The notes under the pieces are model-generated. The model was not told where the DNA came from. It saw only the letters and a list, made by a program, of their open reading frames with translations, and searched no databases. A stretch of 64,000 nucleotides of DNA from Oceanobacillus damuensis (GTDB lineage Bacteria; Bacillota; Bacilli; Bacillales; Amphibacillaceae): positions 124,001-188,000 of the forward strand of contig NZ_LQNF01000003.1 in NCBI RefSeq assembly GCF_001618145.1, given 5' to 3'. Shown one piece after another: positions 35,890 to 43,420 of the stretch. Numbering within the stretch: position 1 is the first letter of the stretch; each line of letters opens with the position of its first letter. The position numbers were made by a program, and so were the translations under genes.

Positions 35890-37938
35890 TTGTCCAGAGT
35901 AGCGTTTAGTCGTCTGATGTGTCTATTTTTTTCTTTATTTGTTCTCATTTCATTTGCCCCTGTAACCTCATATGGTATGGATAGTAATGAGGTTGAGGTG
36001 ATCATAGGGTATGAAAATGAAGCTGGGAAACAGGTAATATTGGAAAAAAGTAGTGAGCTGGATTTTGATTTTAGTCGCATATCCGCTGTTGCCGTAACTA
36101 TTGACCGAAATAATCTAAATGAATTCTATGACAATCCCAATATTACGTACATAGAAAATAATGCAGCTATAAAACTATCAAATACTGCTCAAACAATTAC
36201 AGAAATTTCCGGGACGGATAGCGTAAACGAAACAGAACATTGGAATATACAATCAACTGGTGCCCCATTTGCATGGGCAGAAGGTTTTACCGGTAAGGGA
36301 ATTAATATAGCAATCATTGATACTGGCATCTCCTCACACCCTGATCTGGAAATCGCTGGTGGATATTCAGCGGTTGATTATACAACAGAATGGACGGATG
36401 ATAATGGCCATGGGACACATGTGGCTGGCGTTATCGGTTCAAAGCGGGATGATATTGGTGTTGTTGGTATTGCCCCAGAATCCAGCCTTTATGCTGTCAA
36501 GGCACTGGATGCTGATGGTAAAGGTGGGATATTCAATGTAGTGGATGCTATTGAATGGTCCATTGAAAACAACATGGATATTATTAATCTTTCCTTAGGT
36601 TATGAAAAGGATAGCGAAGACAGCGAAGCATTGCGAAATATGCTGGATGAGGCGTATGACTCTGGAATACTTGTCGTTGGAGCAAGTGGCAATGATGGAA
36701 ACAGTGTCACCTATCCGGCCAAGTATGATAGTGTTATCGGGGTTTCCGCTGTAGATGGACGTTTGAACATTGCCGGATTTTCTTCAACTGGGGCGGAAGT
36801 GGAATTTTCCGCACCTGGATTCAATATTATCAGCACTTATTTGAATGATTCATATGGGATGGGAAGCGGTACATCACAGGCATCACCGCATGTGAGCGGA
36901 ATGCTCGCCATATTGAAGCAAAAGTTTCCCCAGATGACAAATGGTGAACTCCGGGAAGAACTAATTAACCATACTGAAGATTTAGGAGAGCCAGGAAGAG
37001 ATCCACTTTACGGCCATGGATTTATTACCTACACTCCTGATGATCAAATTGCTCCCGGAGAAGTTGCAGACATTAAAGTGAATGAATCAACTGCTGATTC
37101 TCTTTCAATAGGGTGGAAAAACCCGGAAGATGAGGATTTTTCTTCGGTCGCCATCTACTGGGATGATTCCTATCTAACAACTGTTGATAAGGATGAAGAA
37201 GCTGTTTATTTCGTGGAGGGATTGGAAGCTGATACGGAATATACCTTTACTTTTTATACCGAGGACATTTTCGGAAACCAATCTGAAGGTATATCCTTTA
37301 CGGCACGTACAGTAGCTGAGGAACCCGAAGGAAATAATGAAGAAGTTACCATTAAAGAAAAAGACGATGAAGCAACGTTGGATAACGAACAAGATGAAAA
37401 GAAACAGAACAGCACTAGTGATTCTGATAATGAGCAAGTGGCCGTGACACCTGTAACAGATAAACCTAAGGAGGAGCAATTGAGCTCCGTTAAGGGAAAA
37501 CACAGTTCCGAGAAAGAGGAGCAGCCCGCCGTATCAGACACAGTCGATGATTCAAAAGGTACCGATGGTGAACAAGGGGTTATTTCAGAAGATAATGAGG
37601 TTACTGAAGAGTCTCCTTCCAAAAGACCAGCTGCAGAAAAAGCATCACAAACGAGTGGCCGAGGAAATGCTAACCCAGTTGATTCAGATAAAATCAGATC
37701 TTCGCTTAATTCAGGGAAAAATAAGGAAGACGTTAGTGACTCGGAACAGAACGAAGCGGAAGAAAAAGAACAATTCGAGCTGACTCAACAGGCTGATGAA
37801 GGATCAGATGAAGAAAAAGACGAAGAAAATACAGAAGAAAAAGAGAGCGAAAGCAAAAACATTTTTACGCGTTTCTTCAACTTTATCGGAAACTTATTTG
37901 TAACAATAATTGACTGGCTAGGCAGCCTATTTAGTTAG
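35890..37938 (+). CDS. Secreted subtilisin-like protease with FN3 domain and acidic tail
   Basis: A 682-residue S8 protease starting at TTG 35890, eight bases after AAAAGGAG. Signal peptide about 1-29, I9-like propeptide about 35-97, catalytic domain about 120-385 with Asp144 (AIIDTG), His174 (NGHGTHVAG), oxyanion Asn268 and Ser329 (GTSQASPH). A fibronectin type III domain follows (about 393-478), then ~180 residues dominated by Glu, Asp, Lys and Ser, and a hydrophobic/amphipathic C-terminus (FTRFFNFIGNLFVTIIDWLG). There is no LPxTG. The acidic linker is typical of salt-adapted secreted proteins. The TAG stop is fused to repeat A9. Confidence 0.9.
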   Translation: MSRVAFSRLMCLFFSLFVLISFAPVTSYGMDSNEVEVIIGYENEAGKQVILEKSSELDFDFSRISAVAVTIDRNNLNEFYDNPNITYIENNAAIKLSNTAQTITEISGTDSVNETEHWNIQSTGAPFAWAEGFTGKGINIAIIDTGISSHPDLEIAGGYSAVDYTTEWTDDNGHGTHVAGVIGSKRDDIGVVGIAPESSLYAVKALDADGKGGIFNVVDAIEWSIENNMDIINLSLGYEKDSEDSEALRNMLDEAYDSGILVVGASGNDGNSVTYPAKYDSVIGVSAVDGRLNIAGFSSTGAEVEFSAPGFNIISTYLNDSYGMGSGTSQASPHVSGMLAILKQKFPQMTNGELREELINHTEDLGEPGRDPLYGHGFITYTPDDQIAPGEVADIKVNESTADSLSIGWKNPEDEDFSSVAIYWDDSYLTTVDKDEEAVYFVEGLEADTEYTFTFYTEDIFGNQSEGISFTARTVAEEPEGNNEEVTIKEKDDEATLDNEQDEKKQNSTSDSDNEQVAVTPVTDKPKEEQLSSVKGKHSSEKEEQPAVSDTVDDSKGTDGEQGVISEDNEVTEESPSKRPAAEKASQTSGRGNANPVDSDKIRSSLNSGKNKEDVSDSEQNEAEEKEQFELTQQADEGSDEEKDEENTEEKESESKNIFTRFFNFIGNLFVTIIDWLGSLFS

Positions 37939-39344: not shown

Positions 39345-39406
39345 CGATTACAATAATTGAAATAACTTATATAGTTATTTTACAAAACTATCAAGGGGGA
39401 AAGTTG

Positions 39407-42400
39407 ATGTACAAAAGTAAATACAAGCAAGCAGTATGTATTCTATTTAGTGTTTTGCTAGTTTTGACACCTTTTGCCAATGTACAGGCTGAGGGGTTTG
39501 ATTATGATGAGAATTTTGTAAACTCTTACTATGAGCAGGAGCCAAGTGCAATAGGGAATGGGGGAGCAGTAGCAACAGAGCATCCGCTAGCATCAGAGGC
39601 GGCCATTGAAATTATGGAAAAGGGAGGAAATGCGATTGATGCTGCCATTGCTGCTGCAGCTGTGCAAAATTTAACACGACCGTTTTCAGGTGGAATTGGT
39701 GGTGGGGGAATGATGAACATTTACTTTGCAGAGGATGAAGAGAATGTAACACTTACCCATCGTTCTATGTCTCCCGCTTCGTTTGATATAGAATCGTTTG
39801 AGGACGAGAACGGAGATATCTACCCAAGTGACGTACGTATAAATGGAGGCAGATCTGTAGGAGTCCCTGGTACCGTATTAGCATGGGAAGAAGCCTTAGA
39901 TAACTATGGAACGATGACATTAGCAGAGGTTCTTCAGCCGGCTATTACATCAGCTAAAGAGGGATTTGTCATTGATGATAACTTTGTCAGAGAAGTTACT
40001 GAAAATGCAGATCGTTTCCGTTTGTTTGAATCGACATCCGAGATTTTCTTGACGGAAAATGGGGAAATTCCCGAGGCTGGCAGTATATTAAAAAATCCCG
40101 ATTTAGCATATGCATTTGAGCTGATAGCTGAGCATGGAAGTGAGGTTTTTTATAATGGCGAGATTGGAGAGGCCATAATAGGGGCGGTAAATAATCCGCC
40201 AACAGTTGATAATCCTGGTGCTGAGGTTTTAGCAGGAGAAATGACAATGGCAGATTTTGCCGCTTATGAGGTGGTTACTGGAGAACCAATCACGACGACG
40301 TACAGGGGATATGATTTTTACGGAATGCCTCCTGTGTCCAGTGGTGGCCTTTTAATTGGAGAAATACTTAATATTCTTGAGGCCTATGATCTCAGCAGTA
40401 TGTCAGATACGGAATTTTATCATCATTTTATTGAAGCTTCCCGTCTGGGATTTGCTGATCGCGGTGCCTATCATGCGGACCCAGAACATATTGATGTACC
40501 AGTTAATGGATTGATTTCAAAACAGTTTGCTGCAGATCGTCGTCAGCATATAAATGATACGGCAGCCGTCGGAAAAATTGCTCCTGGGGATGCTTGGAAG
40601 TATGAAGAAGACCCCAATCGTGATCCTGATCCATTACCGGAGCTCGAAGCGAATTTCTCTTATGATTTTGCCGGAGATCAAGGGGATGCATGGGATAGTG
40701 ACACGTTTTTTGTAGATACATCTTATGATACGACATTCGAGCTTGATGGAGAGGGGTTTGCTAACCTTCATATAGGAGATCGCAGAAATTCAGCCGGTCG
40801 TGCAACAGCTCAAATGGAATGGTCGGAAAATCAGGAATTATTAGTACCGTTTCGAATTAATGATCCTGGTCCAAATCGGTACATGCGTTTTTGGTTACGT
40901 GCTGATGGCTTTAATTTAAGCTCGAGTCCACATAACGGGTATGGGGTGGAAATCCGCTCTGGTTACAATGATATCCGATTGATTAATAGAGCTGATGGTG
41001 AAGGTGGAGCCTTCGCCCAATTCGATCATGATTTGACAGACGAATTACAATGGCTGCGATTTAAAGTTGTAGACAATCAACTATCTGTAAAAGTATGGAA
41101 GGACGGTACTGAGGAGCCAGAGAACTGGAATCTGGTTGTCGAGGATGATTCTGTTACAGATCCAGGAAGATTATTGATCAGTACAATTGAATTCGAAGAC
41201 ACAAACGGTGGTGGATCCTTCAGTATAGGACCACTTCAAGTGGAAGAAACGGACGAACGAAGCCCTGATTTAGAACCTGGATTTGAATACGACTTTTCCG
41301 GGGCTGAAGGTGATGGATGGGATAATGGTAAATTTTCCACTGAGACCGAGGATGGTGCCGTAGTCGATCTTGATGGGGAAGGATTTGGCCGTGTTGAACT
41401 TGCTGATCAGGATAGATCATCAGCAAGAATGTCAGCGCTAATGAAGCCAGCTGAAAATCAGGAATTGCTTGTCCCGTTCAGTATGGACCCAGGTAATAGC
41501 AGGGATCTGCGTTTCTGGTTGCGTTCAGACAATTTCACGAACCTTCAGAGTCCGAGTAATGGATATGGTGTGGATATTCGATCAGCATGGAACAGTATTC
41601 GGCTCGTGAAAACTGTAGATGGTTCACTTCAAGAGATTGGGCGATTCAATCATACAGTTACAGATGAACTGCAATGGCTGCGATTTAAAGTTGTGGATGA
41701 GCAATTGTCTGTAAAGGTCTGGAAAGGTGGGGAGGACGAACCTGACGACTGGAACTTGATTGCTGCAGATGATTCGGTTTCTTCTCCTGGAAAATTACTG
41801 ATCAGTGCCCGGGAGTATAGGGATGGAGAGGGTGCAGGCGGATTTAAGATAGGATCCATCTCAGTAGAGGAAACGGATGAACAAACCTATACAGAACAAG
41901 GGTTTTCCCATCAATTTACCGGTGATGCCGGTGACCCATGGGATGAAAGCAAGTTTACACTTTATACTAGAAATTCCATTATGGACCAAAGTGGAGATGG
42001 TTATGGACGCATTGAGATACCAGAAAATACGTCTTACGGAACTGCAGTTGCCAATATGAGTGCAGCTGAAAATACAGAAATGCTGGTTCCATACCAATTT
42101 ACAGATATGGATGAAGGTTCCAATCCACATCTTAGATTCTGGCTGCGTGCAGACTACCCTTCTCCGACTGTTTCACCATACAATGGTTACGGGGTTGATA
42201 TCAGACCGTCAGAGGACCGAATTCGCCTGGTCAAAGCAGTGAATGGCGATAACACATGGTACCATGACATTGCATATGAATTTACAGATGAAGAACAGAT
42301 GCTGCGGTTTAAGGTTGAAAATAACCAAATTTATGTCAAAGTATGGAATGGAAATGATGAAGAACCTAGTGAGTGGAGCTTTGTGACAGAGGATGATTCA

Positions 42401-43420
42401 GTTAGCACATCCGGAAGCCTGATGATCGGTGCGTATGAGTTCGGAACAGATGGTGCTGGAATTCATATTGGTGATATTCAAGTTGAGGATTTGGAAGCTT
42501 CCACGGTTGATAGCATGCAAACAGAATCTCAAGAAAATGAGCAAGATGAAACGGAAGAAAATTCTGATGAAGAAAAGAAGAATAGTGAAACAATTAATTT
42601 AACCGTAGCAGATTCGTATGGAAATGTTGTTGCATATACGAATACCATTGTCTCTATCGGTGGAAACGGTATGGTGGTTCCCGGGTATGGATTTTTACTG
42701 AATGATGTTTTGGCTAATCGGACCCGTTCTTTTGCCGCGGAAGGAGAGCCTAATAGTGCCGCTCCACATATGAAACCGTTAAGCACGATGGCTCCTACGA
42801 TTATTATGCAGGATGGCGAACCTGTCTTTGCGGGTGGTGCTCCTGGCAGCCTTACCATTATTTCAACCGTAACACAAATTATTTTAGCTTATCTTGATCG
42901 TGGTGTGGAATTGCCGGATGCAGTTGAAATGGCCAGGCTGTCACAACAGAATAAAATATCTGGCAGAACAATTATTGAAAAACAATTTACAGAGACAGAA
43001 GAATATGAGGAGTTAAAAGCTCTGGGGCATAAATTTGAAGTTTCTGATCTTACTCAAGGTATAGGGTCATTTAACGGAATAGGATTTATGCCGGATGGTA
43101 ATAAGCAGCCTGTTGCAGAAGCGGTTCGCAGGGGTGGCGGAAGTGCCATGGCGTATGATATAAATCTGGAACAAATGAATAATCTGTTGGAGCATTATAT
43201 AGAAACAGCTGAAGTTAACGATCCGCTTAAAAGTCAGTTAACTACCAGCTTAAATCAAGTAGAACACCATGACGACAAAGGTCAAATGGAACAGTCAATA
43301 AAGAAGATGGAAGACTTTTTGAAGAAAATAAATAACAACGAATTGGAAAATCATATTTCACAAGATGCCAAAAATGCACTAATTAGTCACGCAGAGACTT
43401 TGATTGGGCAATGGAAGTAA
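39407..43420 (+). CDS. Secreted gamma-glutamyltransferase with three inserted lectin-like repeats
   Basis: A 1337-residue exported Ntn-hydrolase, more than twice the usual ~580. Signal peptide about 1-28. The large-subunit part (about 30-410) has GGAVATEHPLASEAA, GGNAIDAAIA and FSGGIGGGG. Then come three homologous ~207-residue units starting near 413, 622 and 829; each contains NGYGV(D/E)IR and LRFKV...VKVW, a LamG/concanavalin-like beta-sandwich pattern. An acidic linker leads to Thr1062 in SETINLTVAD, the expected autocleavage and catalytic threonine, and the small subunit (PLSTMAPTII, GGAPGS) follows, with a helical tail of ~90 residues. ATG 39407 follows AAGGGGGAAAG. It would degrade glutathione or polyglutamate outside the cell. 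Confidence 0.88.
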   Translation: MYKSKYKQAVCILFSVLLVLTPFANVQAEGFDYDENFVNSYYEQEPSAIGNGGAVATEHPLASEAAIEIMEKGGNAIDAAIAAAAVQNLTRPFSGGIGGGGMMNIYFAEDEENVTLTHRSMSPASFDIESFEDENGDIYPSDVRINGGRSVGVPGTVLAWEEALDNYGTMTLAEVLQPAITSAKEGFVIDDNFVREVTENADRFRLFESTSEIFLTENGEIPEAGSILKNPDLAYAFELIAEHGSEVFYNGEIGEAIIGAVNNPPTVDNPGAEVLAGEMTMADFAAYEVVTGEPITTTYRGYDFYGMPPVSSGGLLIGEILNILEAYDLSSMSDTEFYHHFIEASRLGFADRGAYHADPEHIDVPVNGLISKQFAADRRQHINDTAAVGKIAPGDAWKYEEDPNRDPDPLPELEANFSYDFAGDQGDAWDSDTFFVDTSYDTTFELDGEGFANLHIGDRRNSAGRATAQMEWSENQELLVPFRINDPGPNRYMRFWLRADGFNLSSSPHNGYGVEIRSGYNDIRLINRADGEGGAFAQFDHDLTDELQWLRFKVVDNQLSVKVWKDGTEEPENWNLVVEDDSVTDPGRLLISTIEFEDTNGGGSFSIGPLQVEETDERSPDLEPGFEYDFSGAEGDGWDNGKFSTETEDGAVVDLDGEGFGRVELADQDRSSARMSALMKPAENQELLVPFSMDPGNSRDLRFWLRSDNFTNLQSPSNGYGVDIRSAWNSIRLVKTVDGSLQEIGRFNHTVTDELQWLRFKVVDEQLSVKVWKGGEDEPDDWNLIAADDSVSSPGKLLISAREYRDGEGAGGFKIGSISVEETDEQTYTEQGFSHQFTGDAGDPWDESKFTLYTRNSIMDQSGDGYGRIEIPENTSYGTAVANMSAAENTEMLVPYQFTDMDEGSNPHLRFWLRADYPSPTVSPYNGYGVDIRPSEDRIRLVKAVNGDNTWYHDIAYEFTDEEQMLRFKVENNQIYVKVWNGNDEEPSEWSFVTEDDSVSTSGSLMIGAYEFGTDGAGIHIGDIQVEDLEASTVDSMQTESQENEQDETEENSDEEKKNSETINLTVADSYGNVVAYTNTIVSIGGNGMVVPGYGFLLNDVLANRTRSFAAEGEPNSAAPHMKPLSTMAPTIIMQDGEPVFAGGAPGSLTIISTVTQIILAYLDRGVELPDAVEMARLSQQNKISGRTIIEKQFTETEEYEELKALGHKFEVSDLTQGIGSFNGIGFMPDGNKQPVAEAVRRGGGSAMAYDINLEQMNNLLEHYIETAEVNDPLKSQLTTSLNQVEHHDDKGQMEQSIKKMEDFLKKINNNELENHISQDAKNALISHAETLIGQWK
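40640..42500 (+). repeat. Three tandem coding repeats inside the transferase gene
   Basis: Units of about 627, 621 and 610 bp (near 40640, 41270 and 41891) encode similar beta-rich domains. Each unit keeps the ELQWLRFKVV / EQMLRFKVEN, VKVWKDG/VKVWKGG/VKVWNGN and ISxxEF/E-Y blocks. Units 1 and 2 are closer to each other than to unit 3, suggesting stepwise duplication. Confidence 0.85.

Follow-up and report, generated by a model that had tools for sequence, protein, structure and literature searches.

The window analysed here is a stretch of 64,000 nucleotides from Oceanobacillus damuensis (contig NZ_LQNF01000003.1, positions 124,001 to 188,000). On its forward strand, the open reading frame (ORF) 39407-43420 encodes a precursor of the glutathione-degrading gamma-glutamyltransferase (GGT) family in which about 660 residues, made up of three lectin-fold units and an acidic linker, split the GGT core between residue ~400 and the predicted nucleophile Thr1062. 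Coordinates are positions in the window and residue numbers refer to the 1337-residue product of this ORF. The gene is laid out as follows:

39393..39399, forward strand: ribosome-binding site AAGGGGG, 7 nt before the ATG at 39407 (inspection)
39407..43420, forward strand: GGT-family precursor with lectin-unit array, 1337 residues (ORF and family models)
39407..39493, forward strand: probable signal peptide, residues 1-29 (inspection of the translation)
39542..40606, forward strand: large-subunit GGT core, residues 46-400, with Arg119 (Arg113 of BsGGT) kept (Pfam, PDB chain alignment, AlphaFold2)
40646..41257, forward strand: lectin-fold unit 1, residues 414-617 (repeat alignment, AlphaFold2, ERGIC-53 match)
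41273..41881, forward strand: lectin-fold unit 2, residues 623-825 (repeat alignment, AlphaFold2)
41894..42493, forward strand: lectin-fold unit 3, residues 830-1029 (repeat alignment, AlphaFold2)
42494..42589, forward strand: acidic low-complexity linker before the cleavage site, residues 1030-1061, 41% Asp+Glu (composition; predicted local distance difference test, pLDDT, mostly <50)
42590..42592, forward strand: Thr1062, predicted nucleophile and first small-subunit residue (PDB small-chain starts; kept in 17/17 inserted members)
42590..43156, forward strand: small-subunit GGT core, residues 1062-1250 (PF01019, PDB chains, AlphaFold2)
43166..43405, forward strand: FIMAH domain, residues 1254-1333, on the predicted small subunit (PF22888, E 4.8e-24)

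The product is apparently secreted. Family models assign the whole core to the GGT family: PF01019 matches twice (E 6.6e-123), best over residues 68-390 and again at 42524-43072 of the window, and the NCBIfam equivalog TIGR00066 scores 366.8 bits against a cut-off of 357.85. The best PDB chain likewise covers residues 45-412 and 1055-1246. In rows without an insert, the distance between the end of the aligned large subunit and the nucleophile is 6-54 residues, compared to 661 here when counted from residue 400. The G+C content is 0.43-0.47 in the core pieces and the units and 0.35 in the FIMAH part. The whole protein is acidic (18% Asp+Glu versus 7% Lys+Arg), as is the insert (21% versus 8%). 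Seventeen promoter-like sites were counted where 12.9 are expected (standard deviation 4.1), and one terminator-like site where 3.4 are expected. A recent or artefactual fusion was ruled out because other genomes carry one or two units at the identical site.

To analyse the structure, residues 46-1245 were modelled with AlphaFold2 using 60 relatives in the alignment (model numbers are window residues minus 45). The model has a mean pLDDT of 77.5 and a predicted template modelling score (pTM) of 0.60; pLDDT is mostly above 90 in the core, mostly 50-90 in the unit bodies and partly below 50 in the linkers and unit starts. Because of this low pLDDT, the stretches between the units are probably flexible. 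The modelled core superimposes on the uncut precursor of B. licheniformis GGT (4y23; Z 51.1, root-mean-square deviation 2.1, 529 aligned residues), and unit 1 (model residues 370-571) on the lectin domain of ERGIC-53 (3wht; Z 18.2, deviation 3.0, 190 aligned). The jelly roll of L-type lectins and of laminin-G/concanavalin-like domains thus extends over all of unit 1; for units 2 and 3, this fold is assigned by their 44-54% identity within the array. Since the modelled units lie between residue ~400 and Thr1062, the repeats are not placed outside the processing loop, and the proposal in the original prediction that the insertion lies in the segment ending at Thr1062 is borne out.

The three units, each of ~200 residues, share 54, 44 and 46% pairwise identity, and their alignment scores (598, 406 and 420) far exceed the maximum of 64 reached in shuffles (200 per pair). 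The motif NGYG is invariant across an alignment of six units. The suggestion that the units are LamG/concanavalin-like stands for the modelled fold; it gained no match from sequence families, as a Pfam scan of the whole protein and of the insert returned no lectin or LamG model at the thresholds used. Unit 1 is only 14% identical to ERGIC-53. When the six-unit alignment was searched as a profile against solved structures, a Lap adhesin matched at E 3.1e-5 over profile positions 31-80 only, followed by four worse matches; being weak and partial, all five were set aside as uninformative. A search for units elsewhere in the window's genome matched only the three described here. The units are located in the processing loop, where the model presents them as lectin-fold beads that may bind carbohydrate.

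The catalytic role first proposed for Thr1062 agrees with the solved enzymes: among the matches listed, the small chains of 14 GGT-family structures start aligning at residues 1062-1065. Thr1062, Thr1078, Thr1080 and Ser1126 are kept in all 17 inserted members, and the protein has both the nucleophile at the small-subunit start and the second threonine of the dyad (Thr1062 and Thr1080). This conservation suggests that Thr1062, with Thr1078 and Thr1080, would cut the chain before itself.

To find other GGTs with an insertion at this site, 98 relatives were searched with the whole protein and samples of the genus, family, order and class were subsequently searched with the units; a first scan of named genomes with P0001 had found no relative. 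Unit matches at E <= 0.001 were obtained in 7/28 genomes of the genus, 16/159 of the family, 17/397 of the order and 5/398 of the class samples, and were weak and partial in 8 of the 17 order-level genomes and in one genome of the genus and family samples. Named carriers are Lentibacillus halodurans, Natribacillus halophilus and two Geomicrobium. An intact GGT with the insert at the processing loop is present in 17 genomes including the window's (L080 has a broken frame and was excluded), with three units in the window, two in G677 and G696 and one in the other 14. The architecture is unusual for the family, as had been judged from the single gene, but it recurs in 16 further genomes. In the order sample, the altered small subunit described below was detected at E <= 1e-50 in 9/397 genomes, each time in an open frame of at least 938 residues, and these are the same nine genomes that give strong unit hits. 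In the phylum sample (398 genomes), the small-subunit profile at E <= 1e-45 found the window's own genome only.

The inserted proteins were compared to an insertless set of 56 ORFs taken from the best 80 of 487 confirmed relatives; the remaining ORFs of these 80 were left out, many of them being fragments, extended forms or close to copies of one another. One of the 56, L079:1238-3265, is a second GGT lying beside an inserted one. In a quick tree without bootstrap, comprising 19 of the 56 insertless rows and two of the window genome's four other GGT-family proteins, the 17 inserted members fall on one side of a branch with a Shimodaira-Hasegawa approximate likelihood ratio test (SH-aLRT) value of 100; the program warned of long branches, among them the genome's own L004 and the window protein. 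The insertless neighbours of this clade come from Massilia and kin, cyanobacteria and actinobacteria. By path, the proteins with two units come closest to the window protein, and the unit tree indicates that a single inserted unit probably gave rise to the array through tandem duplication. As judged from their sequences, the inserted GGTs are a family within one clade, tied to a rebuilt donor pocket. In the open-licence papers searched, nothing was found that describes a GGT with a lectin insert or a permuted lectin or concanavalin insertion, and a description may exist elsewhere.

The donor pocket was examined relative to B. subtilis GGT (BsGGT). According to PMC8062742, Glu423, Glu442 and Asp445 of BsGGT bind the donor alpha-amino group, Arg113, Ser464 and Ser465 bind the alpha-carboxylate and two glycines bind the oxyanion; the D445A mutant loses transpeptidation and keeps 40% of hydrolysis. 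The corresponding positions of the window protein, by alignment and with roles taken from the same paper, are:

42650..42652, forward strand: Val1082, at the position of Glu423 (alpha-amino ligand)
42707..42718, forward strand: residues 1101-1104, VLAN, at the stretch with Glu442 and Asp445
42845..42850, forward strand: Gly1147-Ser1148, at the oxyanion Gly-Gly

The window protein hence has neither the canonical alpha-amino ligands nor the oxyanion Gly-Gly. Glu423, Glu442, Asp445 and the second oxyanion glycine are lost in 17/17 inserted members, in 0/56 insertless proteins and in none of nine GGTs that carry a related unit in another loop (site A, see below); the 56 and the nine retain both oxyanion glycines. 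On the alpha-carboxylate side, Arg119 and Ser1126 are kept and the second serine is Thr1127; the arginine is present in 11/17 inserted members, the window protein included, and the first oxyanion glycine in 13/17. Because the pocket residues are changed, an ordinary canonical GGT was rejected. Since the three acidic alpha-amino ligands are lost while Arg119 and Ser1126 remain, the pocket suggests donors with a blocked alpha-amino group, for instance poly-gamma-glutamate residues inside the chain or gamma-glutamyl peptides bearing an N-acyl group, which the window enzyme would hydrolyse rather than use for transpeptidation.

The C-terminal FIMAH domain scores 85.2 bits with PF22888 against a gathering score of 24.8, and is the only FIMAH match in the window's genome. 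A Pfam scan of the C-termini of 10 of the 17 inserted proteins found FIMAH, SLH, CWB2 or cohesin above the curated cut-off in eight: FIMAH in the window protein, L. halodurans, Natribacillus and G821, SLH repeats in Geomicrobium sediminis and G463, CWB2 in G081 and cohesin in G677. If the precursor is processed like other GGTs, both mature chains would carry a targeting part. This domain, the altered donor pocket and the related permuted units described below go beyond what had originally been noted for this gene.

Combined, these observations lead us to regard the protein as probably a secreted, self-processing N-terminal nucleophile hydrolase of the GGT family that is adapted to act while bound to a surface with glycans. 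In the precursor, the processing loop of a folded GGT core would contain the three lectin-fold units, joined by flexible linkers, and the chain would cleave itself at Thr1062 with the help of Thr1078 and Thr1080. After this cut, ~650 residues (array and acidic linker) would form a C-terminal tail on the large subunit, and the small subunit would start at Thr1062 and end in the FIMAH surface module; tail and module together would tether a hydrolase of altered specificity near glycans.

Several observations weigh against this reading. Firstly, the conserved TTH start of the small subunit is TIN in the window protein and the second oxyanion glycine is Ser1148, changes that could slow self-cleavage; in 4/17 inserted members the first oxyanion glycine is a serine as well. 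Secondly, the position of Arg119 is a valine in 6/17 inserted members, so that one substrate need not fit all of them. Thirdly, the window's genome holds four further GGT-family genes (ORFs of 504-610 residues), and three of these four proteins lack Glu442 and Asp445 and have no insert; the pocket change therefore does not require lectin units. Finally, the model is poorer for units 2 and 3 than for unit 1, the lectin matches listed are those of unit 1 only, and among the scanned C-termini that of G696 (L195) has only a dockerin match just below the cut-off and that of G246 (L189) no further Pfam match.

Three other explanations were considered. In the first, the array is a spacer removed by a second cut, made by the enzyme itself or by another protease, which leaves an ordinary heterodimer and releases the lectin part. 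Penicillin acylases, which are related N-terminal nucleophile enzymes, excise a spacer at the corresponding place; the long acidic low-complexity linker between unit 3 and Thr1062 and a secreted-subtilase-like gene noticed two genes upstream would suit such a cut. We nevertheless consider this unlikely: a spacer need not keep its fold, whereas folded units are kept in one, two or three copies across members of several families, and related units also occur C-terminally and in different loops. About as unlikely is an insert that binds no ligand and serves passively for solubility or spacing under high salt. Its acidity, and relatives such as L. halodurans and N. halophilus whose names suggest saline habitats, agree with that idea, but the protein is acidic throughout, and the conserved lectin fold, the invariant NGYG and the pairing with surface modules point to binding. 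Similarly improbable is an enzyme no longer processed or active, its GGT core the scaffold of a surface adhesin, as TIN, Ser1148 and the three lost alpha-amino ligands could be taken to indicate, since Thr1062, Thr1078, Thr1080 and Ser1126 are kept in every inserted member and BlGGT with the second oxyanion glycine changed to alanine is still 95% processed and 70% active (PMC8062742, a result for alanine and not for serine).

Compared to the Bacillus enzymes (B. licheniformis 4y23 and B. subtilis 3a75), the window protein shares the core fold, the nucleophilic threonine, the helper threonines, the alpha-carboxylate arginine and the first serine. It differs by ~660 residues before the nucleophile where Bacillus has roughly 20, by its C-terminal FIMAH, by the absence of the alpha-amino ligands and of the second oxyanion glycine, and by TIN in place of TTH. 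CapD, a GGT-like enzyme acting on poly-gamma-glutamate, belongs to the same superfamily by sequence and structure match; its solved chains lack lectin units, and it may share its substrate with the window protein. A self-processing enzyme might tolerate little change at its cut site; this clade carries 200 to more than 600 folded residues there and makes it testable how processing copes with a large insert. An insert at the processing loop also offers a natural means of linking a binding module to a single subunit, and its co-occurrence with a rebuilt donor pocket leads us to predict a different substrate class.

Related units were found in three other groups of secreted enzymes. In the second GGT class (site A, nine loci: L064:14816-17509, L188:2620-5301, L068-L071 and L076-L078), one unit lies in the large-subunit loop between DMFLD and VIPF. 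These GGTs share the unit family with the window protein, and FIMAH in the one that was scanned, but have a canonical active site in 9/9 cases and branch separately in the GGT tree. Members of the amidohydrolase superfamily carry one or two units inside the catalytic domain, between their two matched stretches (L061:3099-5975, L062:13270-16227, L067:7919-11425 and L064:6357-9902); their matches name them amidohydrolases only, and we presume them to be N-acyl-D-amino-acid deacylases. In M14 carboxypeptidases a single unit is located C-terminally.

Both the site-A GGTs and the amidohydrolases have the unit in circularly permuted form, its last strands coming first. A profile rotated at one loop beats the native profile by 19-33 bits in 15/15 single-unit cases of these two groups, falls 30-49 bits below it in 16/16 native cases and is 5-18 bits lower for the window and the two-unit arrays; none of the 31 cases tested is a profile row, although L196 is a near copy of one. 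Local alignment to the window array was less clear than this test: the unit boundary was crossed in 6/9 site-A inserts, with small score gains, and in 0/6 amidohydrolase inserts. The permuted unit of the L. halodurans amidohydrolase was predicted with pLDDT 90.2 and pTM 0.86, from an alignment in which two of the ten rows are shifted stretches of the window array itself. Foldseek returned no match for it at E <= 0.001. A further structure comparison matched model residues 23-213 to a GH43 protein (Z 12.3), 28-212 to the carbohydrate-binding module CBM66 (Z 10.6) and 1-161 to the circularly permuted glucanase 1ajo (Z 9.3), and also gave a phage fibre (Z 11.4).

In a quick tree of the units, those of site A group with the units of the window, G677 and G696 (SH-aLRT 99) and those of the amidohydrolases lie elsewhere; because the two sit apart, two separate permutation events are likely, though not proven. 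The window array, read from mid-unit 1 to mid-unit 2, resembles a permuted unit with a linker, which suggests that permutants may arise by out-of-register excision from a tandem array. These patterns suggest a lectin unit repeatedly planted inside secreted enzymes, sometimes in rearranged order. More tentatively, and with somewhat less than even confidence, we propose that the unit spreads among secreted hydrolases of Bacillota by insertion into loops of catalytic domains; tandem arrays would be a donor stage, since any unit-length piece excised out of register from them is by construction a circular permutant, and such permutants are now found in canonical GGTs and, probably separately, in amidohydrolases. 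The processing-loop insertion would have accompanied a new class of enzyme with a pocket that has ceased to recognise a free alpha-amino group. The native, tandem and permuted forms offer a natural series on how circular permutants originate and enter new hosts.

Two short proteins from genomes of different families (L065:12608-14608 and L188:14751-16721) combine a piece similar to the amidohydrolase near its insertion point with two lectin units and have no catalytic barrel; the first, which was scanned, also carries FIMAH. They are possibly a lectin-only offshoot of the amidohydrolase enzyme. Weak partial matches of the unit profile in beta-lactamase-like and M14-like proteins (L061:11741-13798, L062:2492-5077 and L065:1-3344) perhaps correspond to a more distant lectin-like domain.

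In the window's genome no other unit-bearing or FIMAH-bearing gene was found. Two genes upstream of the GGT, at 35890-37938, inspection shows an apparent secreted subtilase; its C-terminal region is long, acidic and of low complexity. As the unit- and FIMAH-bearing gene is isolated and follows this subtilase by two genes, its setting tells little about the substrate. Near unit-bearing genes of L. halodurans, G195 and G055, varying combinations occur of proteins tagged with FIMAH (a canonical GGT and peptidases of families M14, M28 and S15), an M42 peptidase and a solute-binding protein; such neighbourhoods look like a peptide- or polymer-scavenging set. A cluster of FIMAH-bearing enzymes is also present at L061:952-17911, with two GGTs, an amidohydrolase, three M14 peptidases and a class-A beta-lactamase-like protein with FIVAR.

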